In this document: in pieces, positions 16,404-50,208 of the stretch
Layout of the letters: the number at the start of each line of letters is the position of its first letter
Numbering within the stretch: the stretch's first letter is position 1
Assembly (NCBI RefSeq): GCF_900168115.1
Contig: NZ_FUZC01000001.1
Location: 124,001-188,000 of the forward strand
Direction: 5' to 3'
Source of the DNA: Salegentibacter salinarum
GTDB lineage: Bacteria > Bacteroidota > Bacteroidia > Flavobacteriales > Flavobacteriaceae
DNA: 64,000 bases
Notes under the pieces: generated by a model
The model's input: the letters and a program-made list of their open reading frames with translations, nothing else
Told to the model about the DNA's origin: nothing
Database searches by the model: none
Program-made: the position numbers and the translations under genes

Positions 16404-19100
16404 TTATAATTTAATAGTAATTTCCTTTTTCTTGGATCCAAGCTCTATCTGGTATGCACCTCTAATCTTTTTGAATTCCAGTTCCAGTTCTTTATTTGAT
16501 CGCAAATATGCTATAGGTGTGAATTTATCTTTTTCCCTAAGTTGTAATTTAACTTCTTTATTCTTTTCGTTATAAGTAACCTTCTCAATTTTTCCTGCAT
16601 CCAATGTTAACCATAGATTTTCTGAAGCTATAAAAACTTTATTTTTAGCGGCCGTAGTTAACTCAACTTCAACTTCATTATTTTTATTTCGCAAATTACC
16701 TCCAAAAGCTAACCATCCATAATTCTCCTCCTTTGTAATATAAGTAGCAGAATTTATAGCATAGCCGAAAAACCCTGAGCCATAATCCCCTGAATGGTAG
16801 TCTATCCTTAACGTAGAGGGGTAGGAATGAAAAGCAGCCGGGCCAAATCCATCCTGGGTTATATTGGCAATTGCACCCAAGGTCCCCGCATAACCCACTT
16901 TTAGTAAATAGAAATCAGGATTATCGCGGTAAGCCTTTAAAACTGGAATAGCATTTAGTCCGGAACCATAATGATGAATTTGCCTTTCTACACGGGATAA
17001 TTTACCCCCATAAAGAAAATCCCAGTAGCGCCTTGCATTTCCATTATAGGCCCAGTGAGGCATAGTGGGCATGTAAGCCAGGATTGCATTCAAAGTAATA
17101 TCGGCTTTTTGATCGTATCCAAAATAATCACTCCACATATACACTTCTTCCTGACCTGTAGAATCCCAGGGCATTTCAGAGCCAAAAGGATAATTTAATG
17201 ATTTCCATACATCAGCTCTTTTTTTCATTTCGGCTTCAAGATCTCTGGCTAAGTCTGTTAATCCTTCTTCTTGAAGATCTTTAAGAATCATTAGAAACAC
17301 AGTGCCTTCCATTTGGCCATATTGGGCATAGTGGGGCGCCAGTCGGTTCATTGCTACTGCTGTATGATAAGCGTTTTCCAGGTACCATTTCCAATTATGA
17401 TTATCTACCAGGTTTTTTTGATATCTAGCCAACCTGTACATTACCCAATGTGCCGCTGCCACATGAGGATAATTATAAGATCTTCCGGGATCATCGGCTC
17501 CCTTTTTATTCCAGGCCGCCCAGGTATTATAATTTATGGTATCGCTATAAGTACCTTCCGGCATTTTCTCGGGTTCATAATAGAAAATACTTTTCTTAAC
17601 ACCATATTTTAGTTCCCCTTCTGAATATTGGATACCACCCCACATGGTTTCATCGATAAACTTCTGAAGCTTCTTGATTTCTTCTTTTTCTGGCTGAATC
17701 AATTGCTTCATAATTGCGCCAAGCCAACTCCCAGCTCCTCCTTCATCACTTAAACCAGCTACCCATGCACGACTATCCTGGGTTAATTGCTTTTTTGTTT
17801 CATAATCATAAGAAATTACGGAGTTGGTCCTCCCAAAAAGAGTATCAGGTTGATCAAACCATTGTTGTGTCATTAAAAAATTGCCAAAATCATCTACAAC
17901 TTCGCTTTCAGGTTTTATAACTTTATAATTGATACTCTGCTTTAGACCATCTTTATAAGTAATAATTGCGCGGGCGCTTCCCCACTTTTTTCCCTGCACA
18001 TTATATGCTGTAAACCCACCGGGTTTCCTTTCGGCTTCTACTATTTCTATAGCACCTTCCGGTTCAATTTTTATATCTTCAACTGCTTCTGGGTAATTGA
18101 GAAATAACTTTGCTTCTACATCCATTGGCAACACATAGCCTGGGATACCCACAGCGACCGGACGCCCCTCTTCGATAAGCTTATCCTGAATTTGTTCAAT
18201 TCCTGGTGCCAAAACAAACTTCAAAGAGAAATCCTGGGTTTCCCCCGCTTTTAAAGTCAAGGAAGTTGGCTGGTTCCATTGCTCCACGCCCTTCCATTCA
18301 TTTTCCGCATAGGCTTTGGATAATGCCATCCATTCGTGTACCCCTTCAAATACAATACTCCTGTTACTTGGATCATCCAAAAGCGGGCGATAAGCTTCAA
18401 ATGGCATATTCTCTCCTGGCAATACCAATAGGGCCTCGTCTTCCCCGGTAAGGTGCTTTACTTCCAGGTACCCCGCATCCATTCCGATATAAGGATCAAA
18501 AAACACATTATCTGCATGGGTTTCATCAAGGTTTTTTCCTTCTAAAATATTATTAAATGCCATAGGTACTCCCAGGGCCCCTATTTCTATTGGAGTACTG
18601 GCAGGATTTGTTATTTCAAACCTCATTAATAAGCTACCATCTTTTTCTTCGTAATACCTTTTAATTTCCAAAGGATTATCCTCAGGCAGGGTATTGCTTA
18701 GGTCTGAAGCTGCAAGGACGGTTCCTGAGGCCGGCAATGCCTTCACCTTCTTACGATTATATGCCGTAGAAAAAGATGTATATTTTCCATCTTTATCTTT
18801 TATTCTGAAGTTTAAATCCCCTATATAATAAATACTGTCTTTGTCCCTGGTTTCAATTCGCTCCCCCGGGGTGAAATCGAAATCAGGATCGGAATTTGGA
18901 GAAAGCTTTGCTATGGTTTGGGATGCTTTTACCAACTTTAGTGTAAATTCCTCGGTTTTCAATTCAATGAAACCATCTTCCAAGCCTAAAGTTGATTCCC
19001 TATCTTTAATATTATCCCAATAGGTTGATTTTTCCTGTGCTATACCCGTTGCCCCTATAAATAATAGGAATAATAAAATCTTTGCTTTCTTAATTTTCAT
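16404..19100 (-). CDS. Large secreted DUF5695-like protein, probable carbohydrate-active enzyme
   Basis: 898 residues from the ATG at 19100 (a four-codon longer frame needs TTG). A signal peptide is visible (KILLFLLFIGATGIAQ). The N-terminal half is beta-rich and the C-terminal half, from about 430, is helical and Trp/Tyr-rich with patterns of (alpha/alpha)6-barrel glycosidases (NYPHVAAAHWVMYRLARY, then LAPHYAQYGQMEGTVFL). The overall look fits the DUF5695 family from Bacteroidota polysaccharide loci, an assignment made from memory. The ATG lies 11 bases inside the GH51 gene, so it is the last gene of the arabinofuranosidase operon. Substrate unknown; an arabinan or arabinogalactan fragment is a fair guess from neighbours. 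Confidence 0.6.
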   Translation of the reverse strand: MKIKKAKILLFLLFIGATGIAQEKSTYWDNIKDRESTLGLEDGFIELKTEEFTLKLVKASQTIAKLSPNSDPDFDFTPGERIETRDKDSIYYIGDLNFRIKDKDGKYTSFSTAYNRKKVKALPASGTVLAASDLSNTLPEDNPLEIKRYYEEKDGSLLMRFEITNPASTPIEIGALGVPMAFNNILEGKNLDETHADNVFFDPYIGMDAGYLEVKHLTGEDEALLVLPGENMPFEAYRPLLDDPSNRSIVFEGVHEWMALSKAYAENEWKGVEQWNQPTSLTLKAGETQDFSLKFVLAPGIEQIQDKLIEEGRPVAVGIPGYVLPMDVEAKLFLNYPEAVEDIKIEPEGAIEIVEAERKPGGFTAYNVQGKKWGSARAIITYKDGLKQSINYKVIKPESEVVDDFGNFLMTQQWFDQPDTLFGRTNSVISYDYETKKQLTQDSRAWVAGLSDEGGAGSWLGAIMKQLIQPEKEEIKKLQKFIDETMWGGIQYSEGELKYGVKKSIFYYEPEKMPEGTYSDTINYNTWAAWNKKGADDPGRSYNYPHVAAAHWVMYRLARYQKNLVDNHNWKWYLENAYHTAVAMNRLAPHYAQYGQMEGTVFLMILKDLQEEGLTDLARDLEAEMKKRADVWKSLNYPFGSEMPWDSTGQEEVYMWSDYFGYDQKADITLNAILAYMPTMPHWAYNGNARRYWDFLYGGKLSRVERQIHHYGSGLNAIPVLKAYRDNPDFYLLKVGYAGTLGAIANITQDGFGPAAFHSYPSTLRIDYHSGDYGSGFFGYAINSATYITKEENYGWLAFGGNLRNKNNEVEVELTTAAKNKVFIASENLWLTLDAGKIEKVTYNEKNKEVKLQLREKDKFTPIAYLRSNKELELEFKKIRGAYQIELGSKKKEITIKL

Positions 19101-21423
19101 AACTGTTTTCAATTAGGCTAAATTTATAAATGCCTGCACTTTCACGGGGAATGTCAAGCTTATTCTCTGAAATTTGAATTTCAGCTTCAGTAATTTTAAT
19201 TCTTTCTGGATTATCATCATCATTGTACACCATATCATTTTCTCCTGAAATAATATAGGATGTTCCTGTGTTACGTAGGGTATTAGCAGCTTCCTCTATT
19301 TCCAGGACCTGATCTTTGTGGGTTGCATTGACAACTGAAATTGTTAGGAATTCACCATTTTCAGTGATTGTTGCAGCAACGTCCAGCGGTTGAGGATTTC
19401 CGGATAACTCAACAGGCTGTGTACCGAATTCCTTTCGGTATAATTTTAAGACCAGTCCTGTTCCTTCAAGCCAGGCTTCGGTCTTGGTGGTTTTAATAGC
19501 CCCAATAACATTGACGGTTTGAGCATAATTTGCCATATAATAAATATCTGATTGCCTGGAAAACTCGTTCAATCCGGCGGCAATCCCCAGGGCATCGCGA
19601 AGAAAATAACGGGTACCTAAAAGTCCATAAACGTGGGGGCCATACCAGTAATTCCACTCATCCATAGCAATTTTAATATTCTTTTCTTTAATACTTGGAA
19701 TTTCCCTTCTTGCCCTGCGATGTTCCTCGGCAACCTCTTTAATTATTTCCGGCATTTGGTTTACATGGGTTAACAAACCTCCAGCATGCCAATCTTGTTT
19801 GTAAAAATGTTCACTGATGTAGGTCATGTTCTCGCTACAATTCTCATACATCATATCATTCCACATCCCGGGATATCCTACGGCTATTAATTCAATGTCA
19901 GGATCAATATCCCACATTGCCTTAACTACTTTATTGTGTTTTTCAACGTATTCTTCAATAGGCATATGTCCCAACTGCCAATCCCCGAACATTTCATTTC
20001 CAACTGCCCAAAGTTTCACATTGTAGGGATCTGGACGCCCATTCCTTGCTCTCCATTTTCCCATTTCGGTATGCCTGGCACCATTAATGTATTCAACCTC
20101 GTTTGCTGCAAGTTGGGCAGTACCTAAGCCGGTATTCACTGCAATATTGGCTTCAGCTTCAAGAATTTCGCATAACTGCATAAATTCATGAATCCCCACA
20201 TCATTATATTCCAGGCCATTCCAGGCACGTTCAAATCTGGTTGGGCGTTTATCAGGATCGCCTATACCGTCCTTCCAGTCATAACCTGAAACGAAATTTC
20301 CTCCGGGCCATCGGTAAATTGATGAATTCAATTCTTTCATCAAATTGATTACCTCAGGACGGTATCCCTTAATATTAGTTGCAGGCATTAATGAAACAGC
20401 AGCTAATGTAAGTTCACCAGTGCCTATAAAATTAAATTCCAATGATCCGGTTTTGGTATCAGATTCCGCAGAAAATTCAAAAGGAATTTTCTGAAACCCT
20501 ATTTCTTGGTCAATTACAAATGATTTCTTATTTCCATTGAGGGAAATGATAACTTCATTAATTCCCTCACCTTTAAAAACTACTCGCCCCACATAATTTT
20601 CACCTGATTCCAGGCTTAAATTATCCTGGTTTAAGTTTATCTTCTTTTCAACTTGAATAACCGGTAGTTTTCCCTGCGAGTAGGAATAGGAACTATCAAT
20701 ACCCACTTCGCTTGGATCCAGGGAGGCATACCAGGGGGACTTTGGGGTACCCGGGATGTAATAAAACTTACGATCCTCTAACATTTCCGCCCACATTCCG
20801 CCATAAATGGACTTACCCATATGTTCTATAAACTGCCCGTAGATATAGGGGGACATTGGCTCTAATTTCTTCTCCGGTTCAATTTTCACGGTGGGATTTA
20901 AATCATCTGCAGATAATTCTTCTAACCTCAGGTTATCAAAATAAACTTTACCTTTAGCTTTACCACCTTTGCCCAGGATAAGCTCCAAAATAAAACTATC
21001 ATCCATTTCGGTTGAAAATTCCATCTCTACCTTGGTCCAATTGGTAGAACCTTTAAAAATAGTGTCACCTTTAAAATCAAATTTTCCCAGGCGAAAACCC
21101 GCACCAGCTTCCTTACTTTCTCCGGCAACATTTACCGTTTTTATATATCCTGAAACTTTATATTCTGCAAAGGGCTTTACCCCTATTGTTTTGAACCAAC
21201 GCTCCGTAATGAGACTATCTGAATGTAAAATCAAGATCTGGGTGTTATAGTTTTCCGAAAGCGTATCAGAAAATAATTCCGTAGGACTCCATTCTTCGTA
21301 CTGCCAGTCTTTCTCTTTTATATTTTCCCCTTCACGTGGAGAAAGAAGGCTATTGTTTTCTTTCTCACTACAGGCCGAAAAAAAGCAAGCAAGGACAATA
21401 AGAAGCTTGAAGGTAATTTTCAT
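19090..21423 (-). CDS. GH51 alpha-L-arabinofuranosidase with N-terminal carbohydrate-binding domain
   Basis: 777 residues with a lipoprotein signal (VLACFFSACSEK). Residues about 40-170 form a CBM4/9-like jelly roll (AEYKVSGYIKTVNVAGES, then KVYFDNLRLEEL). The GH51 barrel starts near 190 (MSPYIYGQFIEHMGKSIYGG). The acid/base E477 is in AVGNEMFG and the nucleophile E589 in AMDEWNYW, both canonical for clan GH-A GH51 enzymes. It removes terminal alpha-L-arabinofuranosyl residues. The lipid anchor puts it at the cell envelope. It is 19 bases after the DUF885 gene and overlaps the next gene, so it is part of the leftward operon below SusCD. Confidence 0.95.
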   Translation of the reverse strand: MKITFKLLIVLACFFSACSEKENNSLLSPREGENIKEKDWQYEEWSPTELFSDTLSENYNTQILILHSDSLITERWFKTIGVKPFAEYKVSGYIKTVNVAGESKEAGAGFRLGKFDFKGDTIFKGSTNWTKVEMEFSTEMDDSFILELILGKGGKAKGKVYFDNLRLEELSADDLNPTVKIEPEKKLEPMSPYIYGQFIEHMGKSIYGGMWAEMLEDRKFYYIPGTPKSPWYASLDPSEVGIDSSYSYSQGKLPVIQVEKKINLNQDNLSLESGENYVGRVVFKGEGINEVIISLNGNKKSFVIDQEIGFQKIPFEFSAESDTKTGSLEFNFIGTGELTLAAVSLMPATNIKGYRPEVINLMKELNSSIYRWPGGNFVSGYDWKDGIGDPDKRPTRFERAWNGLEYNDVGIHEFMQLCEILEAEANIAVNTGLGTAQLAANEVEYINGARHTEMGKWRARNGRPDPYNVKLWAVGNEMFGDWQLGHMPIEEYVEKHNKVVKAMWDIDPDIELIAVGYPGMWNDMMYENCSENMTYISEHFYKQDWHAGGLLTHVNQMPEIIKEVAEEHRRARREIPSIKEKNIKIAMDEWNYWYGPHVYGLLGTRYFLRDALGIAAGLNEFSRQSDIYYMANYAQTVNVIGAIKTTKTEAWLEGTGLVLKLYRKEFGTQPVELSGNPQPLDVAATITENGEFLTISVVNATHKDQVLEIEEAANTLRNTGTSYIISGENDMVYNDDDNPERIKITEAEIQISENKLDIPRESAGIYKFSLIENSYEN

Positions 21424-21441
21424 TTTGGATGAATCTACTAA

Positions 21442-23136
21442 TTATTTAAAGTCAGTTGAGAATTTCCAGCTCGCTTTATAATCTTCAGGTATTTCTTTAT
21501 TTTCCAAAAGGAACCGAAGCACTGAAACCGGCATCATATTCTCCTGCATAACCCGATCATGGAATTGCTTTTCAGTCCAACCTTTTTCGAGTAATTCATT
21601 GCGTAGGGCATAAAATTGAAGTCCCCCAACCATATATGCCAGCTGGTATAATGGTGGTGTATAAGAAGTTGCAAAAGACCTGCGTACCTCGGCTTTGGCA
21701 TTGGCATTCTCGTGTCCTACTTCATCGACTAACATATCTATACATTCTTGCGGGGTCCATTCTCCCAATTGATATTTAAGGGAAAATATAATTCTTGCAC
21801 ACCTGTGAATTCTCCAAAACAACATTCCCATTTTTTCTTCTGGTGTTCTTGGAAAATCCTTATTCCAAAGGTTAATTTCCCAATAAAGTGCCCAACCCTC
21901 CATCCAGAACGGGGTACCAAAAACACTCCTGTAAGGTTTATGACGGGCATTCATATAAAACTGGAGGTTATGACCAGGCAGAAGTTCATGTTGCACGGTT
22001 GGAAATGAAAAGTTAGGATTGTTTCCCTTCATGCTCATTAGCTTATCTTCGTGGGACATCCCTTGTGTAGGGTAAGAAATACTAATTTCCCAACCACCTG
22101 TAAAGAAAGGGTTCACTTTTTGGCGTTCAGGGGTCATCATGATCATTCCCCATGTCTCTTTCGCCATCTCGGGAAAAGTTATAAGGTCGCGCTTTTCTAT
22201 AAAATCTACCGAATGATCATACAAATCTTTAATTGCTTCCGGTTGCTTACCAGGTTGAACATATGTGTTTTTCACATGTTCCAAAGCTGCCTTCCAGTCA
22301 TTGCCGTAACCCATTTCCTGGGAAGCCTTGATCATTTCCTGTTTACACCACTCAAACTGTTTTTCAGCAGTTTCAATGAGTTCTTCCGGGGTATATGGAA
22401 TAAATTCATATTCCAGGTTTCGAATAAGAGTTTTTCTACCCACCGGTTTCCCAATTATACCACTGCCGTCATCCTTTATACTTTCTTTAGAATAATTTTC
22501 TTTTAAAAAATCTGAATACTTGGTGAGGTCTTCATCTAGAGATTTGTAAGGGGATTCCATCCACCACGTAAAATCAGGGTCATATGCATAATAAAAATTA
22601 TAAGCTTCTTTTAAACCTTGCTGAAATGAAGTAACAATCCCAGCTGCTTTTTCGGCCTTAAGCCAATCCTGGAATTTATCGTTTTCAAGTTGTTTTATTT
22701 TCGTTTGAATAATTTCTTCAGCCTTTTTAAACTGCTGGGCCAACACATTGGCATCTGGCTGTTTTCCCCGCCTCCGCTCCTGGATAAACGGAAATAAAAT
22801 TTCAGTAAAATCCGCTACGGAAGCTACCTCTTCAAAAGCTTTATAATCCTGGTTCAATAAATAGCCTTCTTTTTCAATCAGGTTTTTCAGCAAAACATAA
22901 TCTACCTTTTCAGTTGGTGTAAGGTCCTTAAATTTAATTTCTTTAATCCTGTTTTCCCAATTATCATAAAACCGGAAAAAGCGTTGATAATATTCTTCAG
23001 ATTCCTTAATGGTATAAGTTCCTCTTAGGGCATTTTTATCTGCTTTAAAAGTGTTAATAATATCTACCATTTCATTAGCAGAGCTAACACTACATACTGT
23101 GAGAAAAATTATAAATGTGCAAATGAGTCTTTTCAT
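21442..23136 (-). CDS. DUF885 family secreted protein, putative zinc peptidase
   Basis: 564 residues with a signal peptide (LICTFIIFLTVCSVSSA). The family hallmark is the motif HELLPGHNLQ at H383, a HExxxGH-type metal site, with supporting motifs GGWEISISYPTQG and GWALYWE downstream that fit the gluzincin-like DUF885 fold. The natural substrates of this family are poorly known; some members are annotated as carboxypeptidase-like. Sitting between arabinofuranosidase genes and near prolyl peptidases, it is a candidate for cleaving deglycosylated hydroxyproline-rich peptides, which is inference. Spacing to both neighbours is under 70 bases. Confidence 0.85.
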   Translation of the reverse strand: MKRLICTFIIFLTVCSVSSANEMVDIINTFKADKNALRGTYTIKESEEYYQRFFRFYDNWENRIKEIKFKDLTPTEKVDYVLLKNLIEKEGYLLNQDYKAFEEVASVADFTEILFPFIQERRRGKQPDANVLAQQFKKAEEIIQTKIKQLENDKFQDWLKAEKAAGIVTSFQQGLKEAYNFYYAYDPDFTWWMESPYKSLDEDLTKYSDFLKENYSKESIKDDGSGIIGKPVGRKTLIRNLEYEFIPYTPEELIETAEKQFEWCKQEMIKASQEMGYGNDWKAALEHVKNTYVQPGKQPEAIKDLYDHSVDFIEKRDLITFPEMAKETWGMIMMTPERQKVNPFFTGGWEISISYPTQGMSHEDKLMSMKGNNPNFSFPTVQHELLPGHNLQFYMNARHKPYRSVFGTPFWMEGWALYWEINLWNKDFPRTPEEKMGMLFWRIHRCARIIFSLKYQLGEWTPQECIDMLVDEVGHENANAKAEVRRSFATSYTPPLYQLAYMVGGLQFYALRNELLEKGWTEKQFHDRVMQENMMPVSVLRFLLENKEIPEDYKASWKFSTDFK

Positions 23137-23205
23137 GATATGATCATATAATTTTGACCTATTCCAAGCTTTTTAACTGTCAAGGCGCTATACTGGCTTT
23201 ATTAT

Positions 23206-26200
23206 TTATTTCAATTCAACATCCAGGTAAACGGAATGACGCCCATAGGTTTCATAGAAAGGTTTGAAAACAACTCCGTCAATAGTGAAATGCAATTTGC
23301 CCGGGTCGCCCTCAATGGAACTGCTTAAATCCTTAGCATTTAAAACTACTTTTCGCCATTCTTCCCTTGGTTCACTTTCCTGGGCAGCCAACAATACAGG
23401 ACCATAAAATAAGCTGGCAATATTTGGCTGATCCATAACAGGATCTAAATGAAATGCGAATGGCATTTGTAATTCTACCGTATCACCATCCTTCCACTCA
23501 CGACTAAGTTTTAGGTAGCTTCCTGGGACGGCAGCAATATTTTCCTTCTTACCATTAATCTTTACAAAAAATCCTTTAGTGGCCCATTGGGGCACTCTTA
23601 TATTAAGACCAAACTTCCCATGTCCCCTTATTCTTAGTTGGGTATGATCTTCTTTTGGAAATGCTGTAGTTTGTTCCACCTGTATATCCCGTTCTGTCCA
23701 ATTTAAAGTGGAAGGAACGAAAAGGTTCACATAGAGGGCCTGGTTATCCTTATTCTTAAAATAAATGGAGTTTTGTAATTTGGTGCTGCTTTCAATAGCT
23801 GTCCCGTTACAACATGTAAAACCCTTCATATCCGGATTTCCAAAATGTTTAATGGAGCCGGGGCGGAGTGGGACATGGTATGTATTAGCCGGGCTATCCT
23901 CTGCTACAGAGGCAAGGATATGATTATACAGTCCTCGCTCATAATAATCCATTAACTCTGTGCGCTGATCATATAGGAATAGGTCCCTACTTAATTTAAG
24001 CATATTATAGGTAGCACATGTTTCATTTTGCCCTCCCTCGGAAAAACCATTTTCATAGAGTGTAGCCGGCTGGCTAACAAAACACTCAGCATTTACCGGG
24101 TTTCTAGCACCAGCAACCCCTCCAATGCTGTACATGTAATCATTTTTCGCCTTGAACCAAAAATTATCGGCTACTTGAAAATATTCAGGTGAACCAGAAC
24201 CGCGGTAAGTTTCAAGGGCTCCTACGATTTGTGGTATATGCTGGTTGGCATGCAGTCCTCGGAAGGAATCAACATTTTCAGCCAACCCGTGTGAATGCTG
24301 CGCATCACCAAAGAATACTTTAATATTATCGAATAATTGGGCCCCTTCAAGGTAACTCGATTCATTGGTGATCCTATACAAACGGGCCATTGCCTCGTTC
24401 ATTCCACCGTATTCCCCGGCAATATAGGTGTTCCACATATTGATAAGAGTCTCGATAGGGAGCTCACTTAATCGAACGTTTACCCAATCACTCATCCCCC
24501 TGGCTATCGCAAGGGCTTTCTCATTTCCACTTACTTCATAAATATCCATCAAACCTGCTAAAATTTTATGCAGGGTGTAGTAAGGAGCCCAAACCTGATC
24601 CTCCTGCCCCCCATAAGAGGCTCCGTTCTCCAACATAATAAACTGGTCTGGTGGATAAGCACTAATATAACCTTTTCCCCAGTTCCAGTAATCAGTACGA
24701 ATTCCATCTTCACTAAGATCGGAGTTGTATTCTGATTTACCCGGACCGGTTGGTACAGCGGTTGGGTCAGAAACAAATTCTTCACTCGTTTTCGTTTTAC
24801 GTCCAGAAAGCTGAGATAATTCATACAAGGTATTGACCATATACTCCATCTTCTCCGCAAAATTATCCTTAAGTGATTCATCGTAACCAGTGCTCGCATA
24901 GGCCTGGGCAATAGCTGTTAAATAATGGCCCGTAGCATGCCCTCGCAACTTAGTTTCCTGGCTATCCCATACTCCCAATGGCTCTGCACCTTCCGGCTGT
25001 TCCTGGCCAAAAGCATTACGGAACATATATAAGAAAGAATCAGGATTGGTTTCCGCTAAGGTTAATACAAATTTGTCACGGTTCTCAATAAACTTGGAAT
25101 CATCTCCATTAACATCAGGGTCCAAAGAAACCTGGTTTAACCCGAATGCCTCCAGCCTGCGGTTTGGTGCAGCCGCAGCCTCTACTTTAGCTGCATTAAC
25201 AGTAACCGTGGCTTTTGGTCGTAGATTTGTACCAGGGATTCGACCTTCCACTACATACTTCCCCGGTTTCAGAACTGAACTATTGTCTTTTGGTGCCGGC
25301 CAAAGTACCCGTACCGCAGGTCCCTCTATACCATCCTGATAAACCCCATCCACATAACGGGGTAACCTTGGTAGCTGGCCAACCTCTGTCTCAACCTTTA
25401 GGTCGGGTACACTTTTGAGGTACTTATTATAAAGTTGTGGAGCGGTTTGGGAAAACCTTGGGAGGTTATCTTCCTTTTCTTCTCCTTCATTGACAAGACT
25501 ACTGCCTTCTCCTGTTGAATTATTATATATTCTCGAAACCTGTCCATCTCTCAAAGGAATTCGGTATAACCTGATATCATGCAAACTCGCATTAAGATAC
25601 GGATGCCCGGGCACCAGGGATTTACCGATCAAGAGTGAATTTTTTATTGATTTACTATCGAATAATTCCTGGAGATCTATTGTTGTATTTTCTTTCTTGC
25701 CTATGGGTTTACCATCTAAATAAGCTGTAAGGGTTTGTGAGGGAAAATCAACCACCACCGCCAAATGAACCCATTTATTAGTATTCACTACAGGGGCAGC
25801 CGTACTCTGTTTCTTTTTATCTCCTATAATTACATGAGCCTGGAATCCTTCCTGCTTTTTCGACCCGGTAGGTGAGGCAGAAAAATGGTTCTTCCTACTT
25901 TTACCAAAATCAAAGAATTGCTGATTAGGTTCTGAAGACCGTAAAAACACCCATCCGGTTATACTGAAGGATTCCTCTCCAGTTAAAGCCTCCCCGGGAA
26001 TAGCCATATAAGCTTTTCCTTCACCAGACAGGGAAAGAACTTTACCAAACTTTTCATCATTGACAAACTCATACTGGCCATTTAATTCAGCGTGAAGGTT
26101 GTTCCGGGACCAATCCCTGACATCTCCGTCCAGCACGTAACGTGCTATTAATCCCGTTTCGCCTATTCCATCCAGGATTTGATCACCAGATTGGGCCTGG

Positions 26201-26274: not shown

Positions 26275-26317
26275 TATCAAATAAATTTTCAACTATATTA
26301 TTCCTGGTTAAGCGAAG

Positions 26318-28579: not shown

Positions 28580-28698
28580 AGACTAAAAATAAGCTTGCAA
28601 AAGTGAACTAACACACCAAATGTTATCAACATATAATACAATATTAACTTACCCGATACACACCTTAAGGTATTAAGCCACTTATAATACAGATCATT

Positions 28699-28733
28699 AA
28701 AAAATCAACGAAGTGCATATAGCACTCCGTTGA
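28699..28733 (-). terminator. Strong rho-independent terminator after susD
   Basis: Read leftward, TCAACGGAGTGC pairs with GCACTTCGTTGA (one mismatch, four-base loop, arms 28705-28716 and 28721-28733) and six T follow. It should stop or attenuate susCD transcripts before the peptidase/glycosidase genes. Confidence 0.8.
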
Positions 28734-28780
28734 CCTGACATTAACTCAAACTATAAAAACACACTTAACTAACTAACGAA

Positions 28781-33449: not shown

Positions 33450-33507
33450 TTAACATAAAGTTAGCGACAATTAATACTATCTTAACACATCAAGAGTCAT
33501 TAAGTTT

Positions 33508-38271: not shown

Positions 38272-38406
38272 AATAATATATTTTAAAAACAAAAATAAAT
38301 CGATTAATCATCTTAACATTTGTAGTCATTAACCAAACCTGATACTATATTAACATATAAATTGACTTATTGAATTTTTTTTAATAATATTTACAAAAAA
38401 ATAAGT

Positions 38407-39249: not shown

Positions 39250-39391
39250 ATCTAAACAATTAGACTGGTAACTCCCCTTCATTTACCTAACATGGTAATT
39301 TAATCTTAGAATAAGAATATATAGTAGGAGCTTAAGTCTCTAACTATTTTTAATATTGATTAGTTATTTAACTAAATTTATATTAAATCTT

Positions 39392-41251
39392 ATGCGTTTA
39401 ACCAAAAATACTCTATTATTTTTCTTTTTATATACTTTTGTCTCAGGTTGTTCCTCTGATGATTCATTTGTTGAAAATGATGATGACAAGGAAAATTCCG
39501 AAGAAGAAAATAACGAAATTGATCCTGAAGGTGACCTTAAAATCTACATCCCAAATGAATTTAGGGATATGGATTTTGATGATAATGCCAGTACGTGGAG
39601 TTATAACAGGAGTCAGGAATCTGAACATTTTATTGTTTTTTGGGGTGCGGAATATGGCGACGAAAACCCTGGGTCTGAAAATATTCCTGAACAATTCCGC
39701 GTAGATATTGATGACCTTTTAGAAAAGTCAGAATTATTCTACGATTTAAATATCGTAGAGTTAAAGTTTGCTGAAGTTGGAACCGGAAATTCCAAGCTTG
39801 ACGAATATAAAATGATGATTTTCCTATTTCATCAGGAGGAATGGCTGGCAACCGGAGCTGGATACGATGATACCATCGGCGCACTATGGGTAAGCCCCAA
39901 CACTTGTCAACCTGTTGGCCATACTATTGCACACGAGATTGGACATAGTTTTCAATACCAGGTTTATTCTGACTTACAGAATGGCCACGGATTTCGTTAC
40001 GGTTTTGGGGGAAACGGCGGAAATTCATTTTGGGAACAAACAGCTCAGTGGCAGGCATTTCAAGCCTATCCAGATCAGGTGTTTACTGCGCATGATTTTG
40101 ATGTATATATTCAGAATTATAACACGCATATTCATCACGAAAATTATCGCTATGCCAGTTATTTTATTCATTATTACTGGACGTCCCTGCATGGTAAAGA
40201 TTTCATAGGCCGTTTATGGAAAGAAGCCGAAGAACCGGAAGACCCTATAGAAGTTTATATGAGGCTTACCGGAATTCGTGCGGAACAACTTAACGATGAA
40301 ATTTATGATGCAGCTACCAAGCTTACAACATGGGATATAGATGAGTTGCGAGAATTGGGGGAAGAATATATAGGGAATCATAAATATGGATATACCAGTC
40401 TCGAAGACGGCAGCCATATGGTAAGTCCAGAGTTCGCTCCGCAAACAACTGGGTATAACGTTATCCCCTTAAATGTTCCTAAGGCAGGTACTGAAATTAC
40501 AGTCGATTTTACCGGTTTACCAAATCAAACGGGTTTTAATACAGTAGATGCGTCGATTGCAGGATGGAGATATGGATTTGTAGCATTACGGGAAGATGGA
40601 ACCAGAGTATACGGTGAAATGAATCAGGGAACAACTGCAGAAGTTAACTTTCTCATTCCAGAGGATTGTACTAATTTATGGTTTGTGGTAACTGGTGCAC
40701 CAACAGAATATTCGGCTCACGCCTGGGATGATGACAATAGCAATGATGATGAATGGCCTTATAGCGTTGCATTTTCCGAAACTAATATTCTTGGCGTAGT
40801 AGATTTTCCTGAAGACGCAGAACGGGAAGATTTAACCCTTACTTACGATATTTCTTTCCCTGTAAATACAGAAGCCTATACTGGAGGCACCGTTAACATT
40901 GACGCTAATGCTATTGCTAATTCTTTCTTGTTACAGCCCAATGAAATTACCCAGCAAATAGGAAATGATATTCAGTTTTATGCTGTAGAGAGTTCTGGAA
41001 ACCTGAACAATAATAAAACAGCTAATGGCTACGGATATTGGTTTGATGCTTCAGGAGATGTAATTAACTGGGGAGACCAAGCCGTTATTTTTTCAGAATT
41101 TGATGAATCAAATTTTAGCTTTAATGTAGGACAGTATCCCGGCCACTCCATTACAGGAGATTCTTATACCATAAAGCAGGCACTGGTATATGAATATGAA
41201 CCCGGCAACTCTGTACAGGCCACTATAATTTTAAATATAACATTGGAATAG
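39392..41251 (+). CDS. DUF6055/DUF4859 lipoprotein, probable zinc metalloprotease
   Basis: 619 residues from the ATG at 39392; a longer frame from 39356 begins with TTG. A lipoprotein signal is clear (LLFFFLYTFVSGCSSDDS). After an acidic tether the DUF6055 catalytic region contains HEIGH (about residue 181) and, further on, WEQTAQWQAFQ, which could give the third ligand as in gluzincins. The C-terminal 120 residues match DUF4859-like beta domains (NANAIANSFLL-like pattern, WFDASGDVINWG). Secreted to the surface. It lies between the AraC gene and the S9 peptidase, suggesting protein degradation in the same pathway. Confidence 0.75.
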   Translation: MRLTKNTLLFFFLYTFVSGCSSDDSFVENDDDKENSEEENNEIDPEGDLKIYIPNEFRDMDFDDNASTWSYNRSQESEHFIVFWGAEYGDENPGSENIPEQFRVDIDDLLEKSELFYDLNIVELKFAEVGTGNSKLDEYKMMIFLFHQEEWLATGAGYDDTIGALWVSPNTCQPVGHTIAHEIGHSFQYQVYSDLQNGHGFRYGFGGNGGNSFWEQTAQWQAFQAYPDQVFTAHDFDVYIQNYNTHIHHENYRYASYFIHYYWTSLHGKDFIGRLWKEAEEPEDPIEVYMRLTGIRAEQLNDEIYDAATKLTTWDIDELRELGEEYIGNHKYGYTSLEDGSHMVSPEFAPQTTGYNVIPLNVPKAGTEITVDFTGLPNQTGFNTVDASIAGWRYGFVALREDGTRVYGEMNQGTTAEVNFLIPEDCTNLWFVVTGAPTEYSAHAWDDDNSNDDEWPYSVAFSETNILGVVDFPEDAEREDLTLTYDISFPVNTEAYTGGTVNIDANAIANSFLLQPNEITQQIGNDIQFYAVESSGNLNNNKTANGYGYWFDASGDVINWGDQAVIFSEFDESNFSFNVGQYPGHSITGDSYTIKQALVYEYEPGNSVQATIILNITLE

Positions 41252-41372
41252 GACTACATGTTCTTTTATTATTAAAAACTTTCCTGGAGAAATTCAAAAT
41301 TTCTCTAAGAAACAAATCTATAGTGGTAGTAGTTAAATGAGTATTTTACCCCTATGCATTTTGATATTTCTT

Positions 41373-41615: not shown

Positions 41616-41640
41616 ACACGTAAGAATAATTTTAAAATGC

Positions 41641-43890
41641 TTATTTAAGTCCGTTATGTTTTAAAAAGTAGTTGGTTATTAAAGTATACAAATGCAACGA
41701 AGTATTTTCACCTTCATAAATCCCATGTGAACGATTTGGATAAGCCATCATATCAAATTGCTTATTATTCCTTATCAATTCATTCACCAGGTATTCCATA
41801 TTCTGATAATGAACATTATCGTCCCCGGTTCCGTGGATTAGCAGTAAATTTCCCTCCAAATTTTTCGCGTAGCTAGCTGGAGAACCTTCAATAAATTTCT
41901 CTTTATCCTCACTAGGTAGCCCCATATAACGTTCCTGGTAAATATTATCATAAAATAATTGGTTGGCAACACCGGCTACCGCAACTCCTGTTTGATAAAC
42001 TTCAGGATAACGAAATAATAAATTCTGGGTCATAGATCCTCCTCCACTCCATCCCCATACGTTAACGCGAGTTTTATCTAAAAAAGCATAAGTCTCCAAT
42101 ACTTTTTGTGCAGCCAATGCCTGGTCATTGGTATTTATTATTCCCACCTTTTGATAAATACTTTTTCTCCATTGGCTTCCTTTTAAAGTTGGGGTGCCGC
42201 GGTTATCCATACTAATTACTACGAAGCCTTGTTGCGCCATAAAAATCTCGTACAAACCAACCCATTGGTCTGTTGCCACCACGCCCCAGGGTTCCCCATA
42301 GACATGGAATAGAACCGGGTATTTTTTTGAAGCATCAAAGTTCATAGGCTTGGTCATCCTTCCATCCATTTCAATACCTTCTTCGGTAGTCATCTTAAAG
42401 AAAGTAGTTTCAGGTAAAACCAGAGTCTTAAGTTTAACTTTTAAATGCTTATTAGCCACTAACTCCTTAATCGTTTTATGCTTTGGAAGATTCACTAGAC
42501 TTACGCTATTTGGCGTATTAACATTGGTGAATTTATGAATGGCAAATTTGCCGTTTGGAGAAACATCATAAGTATTTACCCCTTCAAATTCTGGCGGAGA
42601 AATCCTTGTTAGCTTCCCGCCACCATTTAGTGGAACACTATATAAATAGCGCTGGGTAGCATTATCAGGAGAAGCTACTATGTATAGATTTTTACCATCG
42701 GTATGGTAATATGCAGCCACATCATATTCTCCCGGGGTTAAGAGTGTTTTCTTTCCTGTTTCCAGATTAATTTTATATATATGCCGCCATCCATCATTTT
42801 CTGTCATTCGTAAAAAACTTTTTCCATTCTCGACGATTAACTGGTTATTTTTACCCCATTGGTTCGAAGAAATGTCAGGATACCTTAGATCTACCCAGGT
42901 ATCCTCAGTTTCGGTGTAAACTTTATTTAAATCAGAAGAAGAGGGTTTATAAGTATATATAGTTAGTTCGTTCTGTTTCCTATTCATCTGCTGGATAAGC
43001 AATAGGTCGTCATTTACCCATTGCATAGCCGGTAAATAATGCTGAACCGGATCTCCAGGGACGGGGATCCATTTCACCTCGGAAGTCTTCGGGTTGATCA
43101 AGCCTACTTTTGCCGAAGATGGGTCAAATCCGGCTTTGGGATATTGTACGGGAATTGGTTCGGAATAAACTGAATCCGTATTATTGATCATATAAAAAGT
43201 ACCGATCTCGGAAGCATCGAGTTGCCAAAATGCAATTCTTGAGCCATCAGGGCTCCACTTAAAACCATCCCGCATTCCAAATTCCTCCTCGTAAACCCAA
43301 TCAAAAGTACCGTTAATGATATCTCCAGTCCCATCTTTGGTTAGTTGTGTCACCTCCCCGGTCTGAAAATTCTCCTTATAAATATTGAAGTCCTGGACAT
43401 AAGCCACAAACTTATTGTCTTCAGAAAATTTAGCAAACATTAAAGTGGAAGAAGGGAATCCCTTCCCTAATTGCTTTAGTTTTTGGGTATCAAAATCATA
43501 CACCCAAAAGTCCCCTTTGGTATTAGAACGCCATACACGGCTGGAATTCGTGAAAATCATTACTTTACTCCCATCGGGGGACAATGAAAAATCTTCAATA
43601 CTTAGATTTTCCCCGTTTACGATCAATTCATCTTCGGAAAGATAGAGGCTGATTTTATAATTCTTACTATCATATTTCATAAGTTCATCCATGCCAGCTT
43701 CACTTTTTTCGATAGTTACGAAGGCATCTCCCTTTTCAATCCAGGAGATAGGACGTTGATAATCACTTTTGAATTCACCAGAAGCGTAAATACGTTCCAG
43801 GCTTAGTAGAGAATCATTTTGCTGGGCAACCAGTGAAAATGGAATAAATAATAAAAATATAATTAGTTGGGGAGTTAACTTATTTTTCAT
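41641..43890 (-). CDS. S9 family dipeptidyl peptidase (DPP-IV-like), second copy
   Basis: 749 residues with a signal peptide (LIIFLLFIPFSLVAQ). The beta-propeller occupies about 50-480 and the catalytic domain the rest: nucleophile S615 in WGWSGGGS, Asp in GTGDDNVH, His in YPNRSHGIYEG. The Glu motif of DPP-IV (DWVYEEEFG) that binds the substrate N-terminus is present, which supports true dipeptidyl-peptidase activity after Pro. It is probably periplasmic. It follows the GH2 gene by 115 bases and duplicates the function of the copy at 26.3 kb while being clearly diverged from it. Confidence 0.93.
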   Translation of the reverse strand: MKNKLTPQLIIFLLFIPFSLVAQQNDSLLSLERIYASGEFKSDYQRPISWIEKGDAFVTIEKSEAGMDELMKYDSKNYKISLYLSEDELIVNGENLSIEDFSLSPDGSKVMIFTNSSRVWRSNTKGDFWVYDFDTQKLKQLGKGFPSSTLMFAKFSEDNKFVAYVQDFNIYKENFQTGEVTQLTKDGTGDIINGTFDWVYEEEFGMRDGFKWSPDGSRIAFWQLDASEIGTFYMINNTDSVYSEPIPVQYPKAGFDPSSAKVGLINPKTSEVKWIPVPGDPVQHYLPAMQWVNDDLLLIQQMNRKQNELTIYTYKPSSSDLNKVYTETEDTWVDLRYPDISSNQWGKNNQLIVENGKSFLRMTENDGWRHIYKINLETGKKTLLTPGEYDVAAYYHTDGKNLYIVASPDNATQRYLYSVPLNGGGKLTRISPPEFEGVNTYDVSPNGKFAIHKFTNVNTPNSVSLVNLPKHKTIKELVANKHLKVKLKTLVLPETTFFKMTTEEGIEMDGRMTKPMNFDASKKYPVLFHVYGEPWGVVATDQWVGLYEIFMAQQGFVVISMDNRGTPTLKGSQWRKSIYQKVGIINTNDQALAAQKVLETYAFLDKTRVNVWGWSGGGSMTQNLLFRYPEVYQTGVAVAGVANQLFYDNIYQERYMGLPSEDKEKFIEGSPASYAKNLEGNLLLIHGTGDDNVHYQNMEYLVNELIRNNKQFDMMAYPNRSHGIYEGENTSLHLYTLITNYFLKHNGLK

Positions 43891-44004
43891 TTATACAAAT
43901 TTATAAGTGATGGCTTATTTTATATGCTGACGAATCATAGTTTTTTTAAGAAGAAACTATGTCAATACCAGTCTATTTTTATTTCTTCTTAAAAGTGTCA
44001 TCAA

Positions 44005-47142
<3,138 letters not shown>

Positions 47143-48531
47143 TTAAGCATTTTTAAGCTCTTCTATTTCTTCTATTGTTTTGGCTAAGGGATCCCCTAAT
47201 AATTCTTTTCCTCCACTGGTTATTAAAAAATCTTCTTCCACCCTCATTCCCCCAAACGTTTTAAACTTTTCTACCTCATCGTAATTCACGAAAGCCGTAT
47301 ATTTCCCTTTCGCTTTCCATGAGTCTATAAGGAAGGGGTTAAAGTAGATTCCTGGCTCTACCGTAAGTACATTGCCAGCCTCCAGTTCCTTGCCCAATCG
47401 AAGTGATTTTAAACCAAATTCTTCGCTTTTTTTCAAGTCTTCATTATAACCCACTAATTGTTCCCCGAAATTCTCCATATCATGCACATCCAGTCCCATA
47501 AAATGTCCTAACCCGCATTGAAAGAATAATGTATGTGCCCCCGCATTTACCGCTTCTTCTGTATCACCTTTCATCAACCCCAGTCCTTTCAACCCTTCTA
47601 CTATTCGAGTGCAAGCCAGTAAGTGGGCATCTTTAAATCGATATCCCGGTTTTAATGCGGCAGCAGCTGATTCGTGTGCCTCCAGAACAATGGAATAAAT
47701 TTCTCGTTGGATATCGGTAAACCTTTCTGCCACGGGAAACGTCCTGGTCATATCTCCGGCATATCCCATCTCAGTCTCAGCACCACAATCGCATAAAACA
47801 ATATCGCCATTTTCTACACGGGCCTGGGTGGCGTGGTTGTGAAGGTATTGCCCGTTCTTTGTTAAAATAATAGGAAAAGAAATATTCCCGCCCCCGGCAA
47901 TAGCAATTGCCTGTAGCTCCCCTGCAATCTGCTTTTCAGTAACACCATGTTTGGTATTTTTAATCGCATGACGATGCATTGATGCTGTTATATTTACTGC
48001 TTTATGTAGCTCTTTTATTTCTTCGGAAGATTTAATAGAACGTTGGGCAATCACTGCTTTTACAAATTCAATAGAATAATTTCTTCCTATTGTAGATACT
48101 GGAAAGCCTAAGAGTTCACTTAGTTCGATTGTCACCCTACTTCTGTAAGGCGGCAAATAATGTAAGGTTTGTCCATTTTGTTTTGCTTTCTGAATAACAT
48201 CCTTCACTTTGGAGGTTGGTTGCACCTCCTTAATACCACATTTTTCAGCTTGGTTAGCCAGGGGTTCACTGGCTCCTACCCATACCATATCTTCAGGAGT
48301 CAAATCATCCCCGAAAAGTATTTCTTTTCCTTCATCGAGATCAATTATGACGTATAAATCAGGAAGGTTTATTCCAAAATAATAAAGGAAGCTACTGTCC
48401 TGTCGAAATGGATACCAATTATCCTTATAATTCATACCTGTTTCCTTATTTCCGGGAAAAATCAGGATTCCAGATTTCATTTTTTTCTTTAAGGCTTCTC
48501 GTCTCGTAGTATATGTTGTTGTTGAAAACAT
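47143..48531 (-). CDS. M24B Xaa-Pro aminopeptidase
   Basis: 462 residues without signal peptide, so cytoplasmic. An N-terminal creatinase-like domain (about 1-165) precedes the pita-bread metal domain. Metal ligands are visible in LCDCGAETEMGYAGDMTRTF (two Asp), FMGLDVHD (His), TVEPGIYF (Glu) and GGMRVEED (Glu). The enzyme removes an N-terminal residue preceding proline, which suits breakdown of imported proline- or hydroxyproline-rich peptides. It is one base from the M1 gene above and 16 bases from GH2 below, one transcription unit. Confidence 0.93.
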   Translation of the reverse strand: MFSTTTYTTRREALKKKMKSGILIFPGNKETGMNYKDNWYPFRQDSSFLYYFGINLPDLYVIIDLDEGKEILFGDDLTPEDMVWVGASEPLANQAEKCGIKEVQPTSKVKDVIQKAKQNGQTLHYLPPYRSRVTIELSELLGFPVSTIGRNYSIEFVKAVIAQRSIKSSEEIKELHKAVNITASMHRHAIKNTKHGVTEKQIAGELQAIAIAGGGNISFPIILTKNGQYLHNHATQARVENGDIVLCDCGAETEMGYAGDMTRTFPVAERFTDIQREIYSIVLEAHESAAAALKPGYRFKDAHLLACTRIVEGLKGLGLMKGDTEEAVNAGAHTLFFQCGLGHFMGLDVHDMENFGEQLVGYNEDLKKSEEFGLKSLRLGKELEAGNVLTVEPGIYFNPFLIDSWKAKGKYTAFVNYDEVEKFKTFGGMRVEEDFLITSGGKELLGDPLAKTIEEIEELKNA

Positions 48532-50208
48532 CTATTCTTCCATTTGTTTAACTAATTCTACATCTATATAATACTTGTGTTCTATTCTCCATGGGGTAAA
48601 AAGATATTGGCTCCTGTTTTGAACATCCACACTTTGCCACTCTGTAGATGGAATAATTTTAATTCGTTCCTGCGTACCTTTTAGAACTAATGGTAGATTG
48701 AAACCCTCTAAACAGTTCGTATACCTGTAAAACATTTTATTATTGGGAGCATCTACATAGAGTTGTAAGACGGGGATATCAGTGGTCGTTAAATATTGGT
48801 CAAAAACTTTAGAATAATCGTAGCCCGATTTTTCAGAAATGTAGCGTTGAATTTCTATTCCATCTACGGTTTTATTATGAAAAGTCATATTCAAACCTGT
48901 GAGGATATTTTTGAAGAGTTTGTCATCATCCATACTATGTCTTATGCTATGAAGCATATTCCCACCTTTTGGATACATATCACCACTCCCTTTTGCATTT
49001 ACACCATACGAAGGAATAATCGGTTCCTTATTTTGGATACCGCTCCTGGTTCCATAATTATAATCATTAGCGGCTTCCTCTCCGTAAACGTAATCCATAA
49101 ATAACGTTTCACTATAATTGGTAAAACTTTCATGGATGTACATATCGGCCAGATCGTTTGTGGTAATATTATTCCCAAACCATTCGTGTCCACTTTCATG
49201 TATAATAATAAAGTCCCAGGTTAATCCAAGTCCTGTACCGGAGCCGTCATTTCCTCTGTATCCTCCTGAATAATAATTCCCGTAAGAGATATTGGATTGA
49301 TGTTCCATGCCTGTGTTTGAGGTTTCCACAAGCTTAAAACCATCTTCATAAAAGGGATAGGGCCCAAACCAATATTCGAAGGCATCAAGCATATTATGCA
49401 CCTCCCTAGGCATATAACTTTTGGCTTTCTCCAAATTGTAATCCAGGACCCAGTAATTTAAATCTAAATCTCCCTGTATACCTTTATATACTTCAGCGAA
49501 ATTCTCATAATGTCCTATATACGGTATTATGGTATAATTACTAATGGGGTTCTCTACTCCCCACTTATAGGAAATTGTACCATCATTATGTTCAGTTTTA
49601 TCTAACATGCGACCATTGGCAATGGCCATTAATTCTCCAGGCACACGCATAGTCAGCGATGCACCTCTATCCGGCTCATCACTTTGGTGGTCTTTATTTG
49701 GATACCATATAGATGCCCCAAGCCCCTGGCAGGTCACCGTCATCCAAGGTCTTCCTTTTTCATCTTCTGTAAATGTCCAGCCACCGTCCCATGGGGGACG
49801 TATGGCTTCATGGGGTTTACCGCTGAAATATATTTTCACCTCATGTTCAGATCCCATCCTTTGAGAAGGGGTTTTAACCTGGTAGACATTTCCTTGCCGG
49901 GTAAAAGCCAATGCTTGTTTTTTATCGTGAATAATACTATCAATTACCAAAGGTTTTTGCAGATCAATCTGCATTAGGTTGGGATGGTTTTCCTGGACTA
50001 CCTGATAGGTTATTTTATTAAAGCCAGAAGTATATTTATTCTCAAAAGAGGGTGTAACCTCGATATCGTATCTCAGCACGTCCCACCAGGCTCTTTCGGG
50101 GGTGATACTACCTCGCAGTGTATCGGCACGGGTAAATTGTTTATCCTGTCCTAGCATTTGAAATGAAAAAAAGACAATAAGAATAAAAACGATAGAATTA
50201 TGCTTCAT
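48532..50208 (-). CDS. M1 family aminopeptidase, secreted
   Basis: 558 residues with a signal peptide (VFILIVFFSFQMLGQ). The zinc motif is complete: H337-E338-S-G-H341 and E360 eighteen residues on, and the GAMEN-like exopeptidase motif appears as NTGMEHQS. It is shorter than classical M1 enzymes (about 850), lacking the C-terminal helical domain. It should cleave N-terminal residues from peptides in the periplasm. It is the first gene of the leftward unit M1, M24, GH2, S9; the 665-base gap upstream holds its promoter region and a dispersed repeat. Confidence 0.9.
   Translation of the reverse strand: MKHNSIVFILIVFFSFQMLGQDKQFTRADTLRGSITPERAWWDVLRYDIEVTPSFENKYTSGFNKITYQVVQENHPNLMQIDLQKPLVIDSIIHDKKQALAFTRQGNVYQVKTPSQRMGSEHEVKIYFSGKPHEAIRPPWDGGWTFTEDEKGRPWMTVTCQGLGASIWYPNKDHQSDEPDRGASLTMRVPGELMAIANGRMLDKTEHNDGTISYKWGVENPISNYTIIPYIGHYENFAEVYKGIQGDLDLNYWVLDYNLEKAKSYMPREVHNMLDAFEYWFGPYPFYEDGFKLVETSNTGMEHQSNISYGNYYSGGYRGNDGSGTGLGLTWDFIIIHESGHEWFGNNITTNDLADMYIHESFTNYSETLFMDYVYGEEAANDYNYGTRSGIQNKEPIIPSYGVNAKGSGDMYPKGGNMLHSIRHSMDDDKLFKNILTGLNMTFHNKTVDGIEIQRYISEKSGYDYSKVFDQYLTTTDIPVLQLYVDAPNNKMFYRYTNCLEGFNLPLVLKGTQERIKIIPSTEWQSVDVQNRSQYLFTPWRIEHKYYIDVELVKQMEE

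Follow-up and report, generated by a model that had tools for sequence, protein, structure and literature searches.

A gene block of Salegentibacter salinarum predicted to serve the use of hydroxyproline-rich cell-wall glycoproteins

Results

We analysed a 64,000-nucleotide stretch of the Salegentibacter salinarum genome (assembly GCF_900168115.1, 4.31 Mb in 40 contigs; contig NZ_FUZC01000001.1, positions 124,001 to 188,000), referred to here as the window, whose own numbering is used throughout. A 34-kb block within it (16404..50208) combines glycosidases, a SusCD pair, proline-type peptidases and a pathway for hydroxyproline (Hyp), and profile scans found these genes where a preliminary description, made from the letters of the DNA, had placed them. 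Hydroxyproline-rich glycoproteins (HRGPs), to which both extensin and arabinogalactan protein (AGP) belong, occur in abundance in the walls of plants and green algae, where their role is structural. With a probability of roughly three in four, the genes of the block together form a single system for using such cell-wall glycoproteins, Hyp-rich and arabinosylated, from plants or green algae. An older Hyp regulon would be its core, and it is probably switched on as a unit. The observations behind this reading are the gene content, the protein families, a linkage that recurs in relatives and an operator sequence that recurs with it.

Families were assigned by scans with Pfam and NCBIfam profiles, and curated NCBIfam cut-offs are quoted where they were passed or missed. 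Published work is cited from excerpts of the respective papers. The block holds 17 genes, 15 of them on the minus strand, in keeping with its description as lying mostly on one strand; the AraC and DUF6055 genes are on the plus strand.

16404..19112, minus: DUF5695 protein, predicted to be secreted, with a PL27-like fold; probable glycan lyase or glycosidase (PF18951, E 0)
19090..21423, minus: GH51-type alpha-L-arabinofuranosidase, probable lipoprotein (PF06964, 2.1e-20; PF22848; NF051901 below cut-off; lipobox)
21442..23136, minus: DUF885 protein with an HExxxGH motif, probably secreted, possible metallopeptidase (PF05960, 4.5e-46; closest PDB entries 3u24, 3o0y, 3iuk)
23206..26292, minus: LamG-Big_4-GH146-like beta-L-arabinofuranosidase (PF07944, PF20736, PF13385, PF07532; GH127 catalytic domain 2.4e-72)
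26318..28579, minus: S9 peptidase without DWVYEEE, called S9a here (PF00930, PF00326; closest PDB entry 2d5l)
28781..30364, minus: SusD-like lipoprotein (PF07980, PF14322)
30376..33357, minus: SusC-like TonB-dependent transporter (TIGR04056, 763.3 bits, over cut-off)
33508..34749, minus: FAD-dependent D-amino-acid dehydrogenase, probably for D-hydroxyproline (PF01266; NF001933 below cut-off; operon position)
34760..35761, minus: 4-hydroxyproline epimerase (NF010578, 597.9 bits against a cut-off of 376)
35768..37336, minus: aldehyde dehydrogenase (ALDH), probably alpha-ketoglutarate semialdehyde dehydrogenase (PF00171)
37354..38292, minus: dihydrodipicolinate synthase (DHDPS) family protein, probable pyrroline-4-hydroxy-2-carboxylate deaminase (PF00701; operon position)
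38407..39249, plus: AraC-family regulator with a cupin-type N-terminus (PF12833, PF02311)
39356..41251, plus: DUF6055-DUF4859 lipoprotein, distant Svx relative (PF19527, 564.4 bits; HEIGH motif)
41641..43890, minus: dipeptidyl peptidase IV (DPP-IV, S9B) with DWVYEEE, probably secreted (PF00930, PF00326; PDB 7y4f, E 1.6e-102)
44005..47127, minus: LacZ-type GH2 beta-galactosidase (NF052611, 1071.3 bits against a cut-off of 999)
47143..48531, minus: M24B protein of the Xaa-Pro aminopeptidase type (AMP_N), no signal peptide seen (PF00557, PF05195)
48532..50208, minus: M1-family protein with an HESGH motif, probably secreted (PF01433)

The susC and susD genes adjoin, and genes for carbohydrate-active enzymes (GH146-like, GH51, GH2 and PL27-like) lie beside them, which gives the locus the gene layout of a polysaccharide utilisation locus.

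Recurring linkage in relatives

The gene set is conserved in relatives, its order recurring in other genera beyond chance. In a family sample of 299 genomes, where each gene family was counted at its own E-value limit, the Hyp epimerase occurred in 152 genomes, DUF5695 in 15 and DUF6055 in seven. The epimerase was found in 14 of the 15 DUF5695 genomes (Fisher p 0.0008, without correction for relatedness). The specific GH146 (at least 62% identity) was present in 14 of the 299 genomes, the window's own included, and nine of these 14 carried the epimerase on the same contig at a distance of about 12 kb or less.

Of 360 DUF5695 relatives, a wider scan of named species genomes retained the best 80, which lie in 79 genomes, since loci L095 and L097 are in the same one. 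Many of the flanks end at contig borders, and contigs were paired by their length or by an epimerase gene inside the flank. The epimerase was present in 77 of the 79 genomes, and at 47 of the 80 loci, spread over three orders, it shared a contig with DUF5695 at a distance of no more than 30 kb, often in the same gene order; the remaining 33 are taken up below. The idea that the block forms one utilisation system, which the preliminary description would have given up had the gene groups lain apart in relatives, is to this extent supported by linkage. The 47 linked loci carry 17 name labels, some of them synonyms or bare class names, and outside Flavobacteriales they include Siphonobacter and Rufibacter (Cytophagales) and Mucilaginibacter (Sphingobacteriales), and also Pararcticibacter and Pedobacter. 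The closest named relative of the window DUF5695 gene is in Salegentibacter agarivorans (94% identity over its length).

Within 10 kb of DUF5695, 62 of the 80 loci carried GH146 at 60% identity or more, and 66 did at 28%. At the latter threshold, GH51 or GH43 was found at 50 loci, S9a at 47, DUF885 at 44, GH36 or GH97 at 22, GH42 and an amino-acid permease at 16 each and a further GH127-type gene at 14. DUF6055 was found at 24 loci at 20% identity or more and at 13 when 28% was required.

The hydroxyproline operon and its predicted operator

Bacterial trans-4-hydroxy-L-proline operons encode an epimerase, an FAD dehydrogenase, a DHDPS-type deaminase and a semialdehyde dehydrogenase. The same four families stand side by side in the window, in the order deaminase, ALDH, epimerase and FAD dehydrogenase, separated by only 6-17 bases. 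In contrast to the described operons, the one here is connected with carbohydrate-active enzymes, SusCD and peptidases through its location and through operator-like sites. The operon had been called complete; all four fitting families are there, but the epimerase, the sole proline-racemase-family match in the genome, alone exceeds a curated cut-off. The best NCBIfam matches of the ALDH were 2,5-dioxovalerate and alpha-ketoglutaric semialdehyde dehydrogenases, at scores far under the cut-off. The roles of D-Hyp dehydrogenase, deaminase and semialdehyde dehydrogenase, none of them over an equivalog cut-off, are therefore probable ones, given by family and position.

The gap between the araC and deaminase genes contains a block conserved across genera, with a TTAnC direct repeat at a spacing of 21 bases, which we take to be that of AraC half-sites. 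Sites were scored in the window with a position weight matrix (PWM) built from 37 such gaps, Salegentibacter excluded, and with the pattern TTANCNNNNNNNNATACNATNTTANC.

38328..38366, plus: operator in the divergent promoter of the Hyp operon and araC (PWM 33.8; exact pattern match; conserved across genera)
33460..33498, plus: operator-like site upstream of susC (PWM 22.1; exact pattern match)
28622..28660, plus: operator-like site upstream of S9a, the first gene of the S9a-GH146-DUF885-GH51-DUF5695 run (PWM 8.0, chance level alone; exact pattern match)
50280..50318, minus: operator-like site preceding the M1-M24-GH2-DPP4 genes (PWM 11.9, chance level alone; pattern match with one mismatch)
39282..39320, minus: weak operator-like site between araC and DUF6055 (PWM 10.2, chance level alone)

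Matrix maxima in ten simulated windows ranged from 5.3 to 12.3, so that only the sites at 38328 and 33460 stand on their own. The pattern had three exact matches in the 4.3-Mb genome, all of them in the block (before S9a, susC and the Hyp operon), and nine with at most one mismatch, four of these in the locus. In 4 Mb simulated from the window statistics, no exact match and two matches with one mismatch were found.

In the relatives, scores of at least 14 were counted after removal of duplicate gaps. Such scores occurred before S9a in 28 of 53 gaps, before susC in 8 of 12, before M1 in 3 of 12 and before GH146 in 3 of 20; there were none in 102 convergent gaps and none in 128 gaps before genes labelled DUF885, DUF5695, GH43, ALDH, EPIM or DAO. 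Before unlabelled genes, 11 of 300 gaps scored this high in DUF5695 loci and 1 of 77 in the control loci described below, and nine of the eleven precede DUF6055 genes. The flanks contain 25 DUF6055 genes, 16 of which have an upstream gap of at least 60 bases. Twelve of these 16 gaps scored 22.5-30.3 (ten from Flavobacterium, one from Leeuwenhoekiella, where the gap is shared with araC, and one from Sinomicrobium); among the twelve genes, that of locus L105 alone was profile-checked. The AraC protein is the putative binder of this operator.

In Flavobacterium loci, an amino-acid permease gene lies between the Hyp dehydrogenase and S9a genes (L105:930-2345) and is a candidate Hyp importer. At L132:12859-13830, a gene of the ornithine cyclodeaminase/mu-crystallin (OCD) family, which includes pyrroline-2-carboxylate reductases, follows DUF5695 and hints at use of trans-3-Hyp; OCD-type homologues were present at 7 of the 80 DUF5695 loci and 2 of the 20 control loci.

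Epimerase neighbourhoods without DUF5695

As controls we used 20 of the 138 family genomes that have the epimerase without DUF5695, namely the highest-scoring ones on sufficiently long contigs (L243-L262). At 28% identity or more, these 20 neighbourhoods held no homologue of GH146, GH51, GH43, GH36, GH97, GH42, DPP-IV or M1. A GH2 homologue was present in one and a SusC homologue in two, the latter in none at 30%. The control neighbourhoods suggest that the association of certain peptidases with Hyp catabolism is old and that the glycan enzymes are a special addition. As Hyp genes, some peptidases and the operator occur elsewhere without glycan genes, the glycan part looks recruited, and the simplest account is that an older Hyp regulon took in SusCD, the arabinosidases, the PL27-like enzyme and an extensin-type peptidase.

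The DUF885-like genes of the controls often sit inside the Hyp operon. DUF885 may be a peptidase for Hyp peptides.

Glycan enzymes

The arabinofuranosidase at 23206..26292 had been described as a GH127 enzyme of the HypBA1 type. This identity was dropped, as GH146 structures are far closer: the PDB search returned 5opj at 8.4e-62 and 8k7y at 7.1e-40, and the GH127 enzyme HypBA1 (3wkw) at just 1.8e-7. The Pfam scan of the protein found no GH127C domain (PF20737), which is present in the extra GH127 of relatives. The window enzyme keeps the residues E757-x-C759 and C827-C828, corresponding to the E-x-C...C-C zinc ligands known for Bll3HypBA1 (PMC10850190). By its sequence it belongs to GH146, closest to BT0349/Bll3HypBA1. 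The correction favours use of HRGPs, because the GH146 enzymes Bll4HypBA1 and XeHypBA1 are active on Araf-beta1-Hyp (PMC10850190).

The DUF5695 protein was modelled from a 61-row alignment (predicted local distance difference test score, pLDDT, 87.5; predicted template-modelling score 0.89), an earlier alignment of 12 sequences having given a pLDDT of 60.8. The model comprises a beta-sandwich, a helical barrel and a second beta-sandwich. Its top Foldseek match was the PL27 enzyme BACCELL_00875 (5nok/5no8) at E 4.5e-27, with the runner-up at 1.8e-7; the template-modelling score was 0.59 when normalised to the query length and 0.78 when normalised to that of the target, at 14-16% identity. A DUF5695 sequence profile found 5no8 at E 1.6e-10, and a single-sequence PDB search gave no match at E 1. 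As modelled, DUF5695 shares the fold of BACCELL_00875, and it is probably a glycan lyase or glycosidase. PL27 enzymes free rhamnose from gum arabic via beta-elimination (PMC8377490).

As a possible sign of lyase activity, GH88 and GH105 were sought beside DUF5695, and none was found among ten scanned neighbours in relatives. Two of the ten were GH97 proteins and one was an OCD/mu-crystallin protein; a sigma-54 two-component pair was also among them. At L117:12782-15201, genes for a histidine kinase and a sigma-54 response regulator directly follow DUF5695, and L114 has genes of equal size. Divergent DUF5695 paralogues lie at or beside related loci (L126:13379-16096, 20% identity; L173:17638-19998, 23%).

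Peptidases

Profile scans agree with the M1, M24, DUF885 and DUF6055 families named earlier, as they do with GH51 and GH2. The GxME pattern was sought in the window M1 protein and was not found. Of the two enzymes described as DPP-IV-type, both are S9 proteins with a DPPIV_N domain (2.1e-49 and 2.4e-82), and DWVYEEE, presumably the DPP-IV signature, is present in the second (41641-43890) only. A DPP-IV identity was accordingly dropped for S9a (26318..28579), whose closest chain, 2d5l, we take to be the Porphyromonas prolyl tripeptidyl peptidase.

The window DUF6055 protein matched NF040510 (Svx/AvrXca) at E 3.6e-21, with 75.4 bits against a cut-off of 625, and contains HEIGH with the next E after 29 residues. 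A PDB sequence search with it gave no match at E 1. In Wenyingzhuangia, the DUF6055 protein of a like locus matched Svx over 64-532 of 601, with acyltransferase-type matches behind. On this basis the window protein appears to be distantly related to Svx, an extensin peptidase. Svx degraded carrot extensin and spared mucin and concanavalin A (2026; PMC13164431).

Outside the block, a homologue of Peptidase M57 (dual-action HEIGH) is encoded at 57930-58775.

Genes left of the locus

A tyrosine recombinase (PHROG integrase) is encoded at 8317-9390 and a Schlafen AlbA_2 protein at 899-2308. The two genes possibly mark a mobile-element border.

Discussion

Proposed mechanism

We infer the activity and location of each protein, the substrate and the inducer. 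In the proposed scheme, the PL27-like DUF5695 would act outside the cell together with the GH146-like, GH51 and GH2 glycosidases to take off arabinose and galactose glycans. The backbone would be opened by the Svx-like DUF6055 metallopeptidase, DUF885 and M1, and the two S9 enzymes would cleave after proline-type residues. Glycopeptides or oligosaccharides would be imported through SusCD, and the M24B peptidase would free imino acids inside the cell. Epimerase, D-Hyp dehydrogenase, deaminase and semialdehyde dehydrogenase would then convert Hyp to 2-oxoglutarate. The AraC regulator, probably answering Hyp or a breakdown product, would bind the direct repeat at the promoters of the Hyp genes, susC, S9a-GH146-DUF5695 and M1.

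A bolder form of this scheme holds that an ancestral Hyp-sensing AraC protein took over SusCD, the arabinosidases, the extensin-type peptidase and DUF5695, so that Hyp, not sugar, triggers the stripping of the sugar coat. We offer it tentatively, rating its chances at a little under even.

Points that weigh against one system

Several observations count against a single HRGP system. At 33 of the 80 DUF5695 loci the epimerase was not within 30 kb: in 25 cases it was on another contig, in six on the same contig at a greater distance (three of them beyond 1 Mb), and in two it was absent. Some of the 25 may nevertheless be near, because many genomes are drafts. Related species make the counts in both the linkage and the operator tallies non-independent.

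As for the operator, three of the five sites in the window, taken singly, score no better than chance, and an intragenic position, 33881, scores 11.9, equal to the M1 site. The loose positions of the pattern were chosen after the window sites had been seen, and at two mismatches there was no excess (94 matches against 115 for the reversed control). Four of the 16 DUF6055 gaps had no operator and scored below zero. The operator was also present in 15 of 21 araC/deaminase gaps of the control genomes, so it marks the Hyp regulon first and not the glycan system.

Among the proteins, the window block encodes no Hyp importer. The spacing of 29 in the window DUF6055 protein is just beyond that of the gluzincin/Svx motif, HEXXHX(8,28)E (PMC9266454). 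Extensin cleavage by Svx depends on an acyltransferase-like domain (PMC13164431), which the window protein lacks; DUF4859 occupies that region. The control neighbourhoods contained S9a-like genes (4 of 20), creatinase-type M24 genes (5 of 20) and AMP_N-type M24 genes (6 of 20, at 25-27% identity); DUF885-like genes (20-25% identity) were found in 10 of 20 by any BLAST hit and in 4 of 20 at 40% coverage. Such peptidases thus accompany Hyp genes where glycan genes are absent, and their substrates may be other Hyp-containing proteins, for example collagen.

Alternative readings

Within the HRGP reading we lean towards extensin over AGP as the substrate. In extensin, Ser bears alpha-galactose and Hyp bears chains of beta-arabinose (PMC9266454). 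It is favoured by an arabinofuranosidase of the GH146 type, by the kinship with Svx and by the GH36/GH97 genes found in relatives, whereas the PL27-like fold and the beta-galactosidases favour AGP. An AGP of the gum-arabic type as the target, unlikely though deserving attention, would have DUF5695 remove a uronic-acid-linked cap, GH2/GH42 the galactose and GH51/GH43/GH146 the arabinose, with the peptidases and the Hyp pathway using the protein core. It draws on the rhamnose-releasing activity of PL27 on gum arabic (PMC8377490), on the LacZ-type GH2 of the block and the GH42 genes at 16 of 80 relatives, and on the activity of the bifidobacterial LamG-Ig-GH146 enzyme Bll3HypBA1 on rice AGP (PMC10850190). 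Against it, no GH30, GH35, GH79, GH88 or GH105 exceeded the cut-off among the scanned proteins of the locus and its relatives, which are a minority of the neighbours, with GH43 taken as a whole family. The presence of GH36 or GH97, families that include alpha-galactosidases, at 22 of 80 loci suits extensin better, as does the Svx relation.

Still less probable is that two systems lie side by side, a scavenging operon for Hyp peptides (including those of collagen) and an unrelated plant-glycan locus, adjacent through chance or joint transfer. Hyp operons that contain peptidases but lack glycosidases do exist, the two halves are not close at the 33 loci discussed above, and several unlinked loci (L109, L137, L141, L147 and L152) have their own SusCD with GH146-DUF5695. 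However, the close linkage recurs in several genera and three orders with varied gene orders, and operator-like sites precede genes of both halves. Moreover, ten of the 33 unlinked loci keep an AraC gene of at least 60% identity beside the glycan half, and nearly all DUF5695 genomes (77 of 79) have the epimerase.

Animal collagen, or another animal Hyp protein, with incidental glycosidases is disfavoured as the main target and very improbable: DPP-IV, M24B and M1 enzymes are generally suited to collagen peptides, and some hosts are of marine provenance or, going by name or title, associated with fish or sponges, but arabinofuranosidases, for which we know of no role on collagen, are frequent at the loci (GH146 at 62 of 80, GH51 or GH43 at 50 of 80), an Svx-type peptidase is present, and the names of several hosts indicate an association with plants (phragmitis, soyae, glycines, Root420).

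Relation to known systems and significance

Among the titles and abstract openings that searches of the licensed PubMed Central literature listed, we found no described locus in which removal of glycans is coupled to proteolysis directed at proline and to oxidation of Hyp. The closest proposal concerns Latescibacteria single amplified genomes, for which degradation of HRGPs (extensin, AGP) was put forward from gene content, with GH127 and nutritional peptidases; the available part of that report describes no Hyp catabolic locus or shared regulation (PMC4454575). The HypBA1/HypBA2 cluster of Bifidobacterium longum likewise directs beta-L-arabinofuranosidases at HRGP arabinose (PMC7263609, PMC10850190). 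It targets Hyp-linked beta-L-arabinooligosaccharides, and the excerpts describe no peptidase set or Hyp catabolism there. The Bacteroides PL27 gum-arabic enzymes (BACCELL_00875, BT0263; PMC8377490) provide the nearest solved fold to DUF5695; they are directed at glycans, share little sequence with it, as given above, and are linked to no Hyp operon in the available text. Svx/AvrXca of plant-pathogenic bacteria (PMC13164431, PMC9266454, PMC10815107) resembles the window DUF6055 protein through NF040510 and HExxH...E. It differs in being a secreted virulence factor, for which the excerpts describe no utilisation locus, and in having the acyltransferase-like domain where the window protein has DUF4859.

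The described HRGP utilisation systems that we found treat these proteins as a source of sugar. If the reading proposed here is true, bacteria would recover carbon and nitrogen alike from HRGPs through coupled deglycosylation, proline-directed proteolysis and Hyp oxidation, and the gene set would provide a genomic marker of HRGP use in rhizosphere and marine Bacteroidota. It would also suggest roles for DUF5695 and DUF6055, and under a Hyp-commanded regulon DUF5695 would represent a new family of lyases or glycosidases for the glycans of Hyp-rich proteins. The locus offers a direct test of amino-acid control over a SusCD system.

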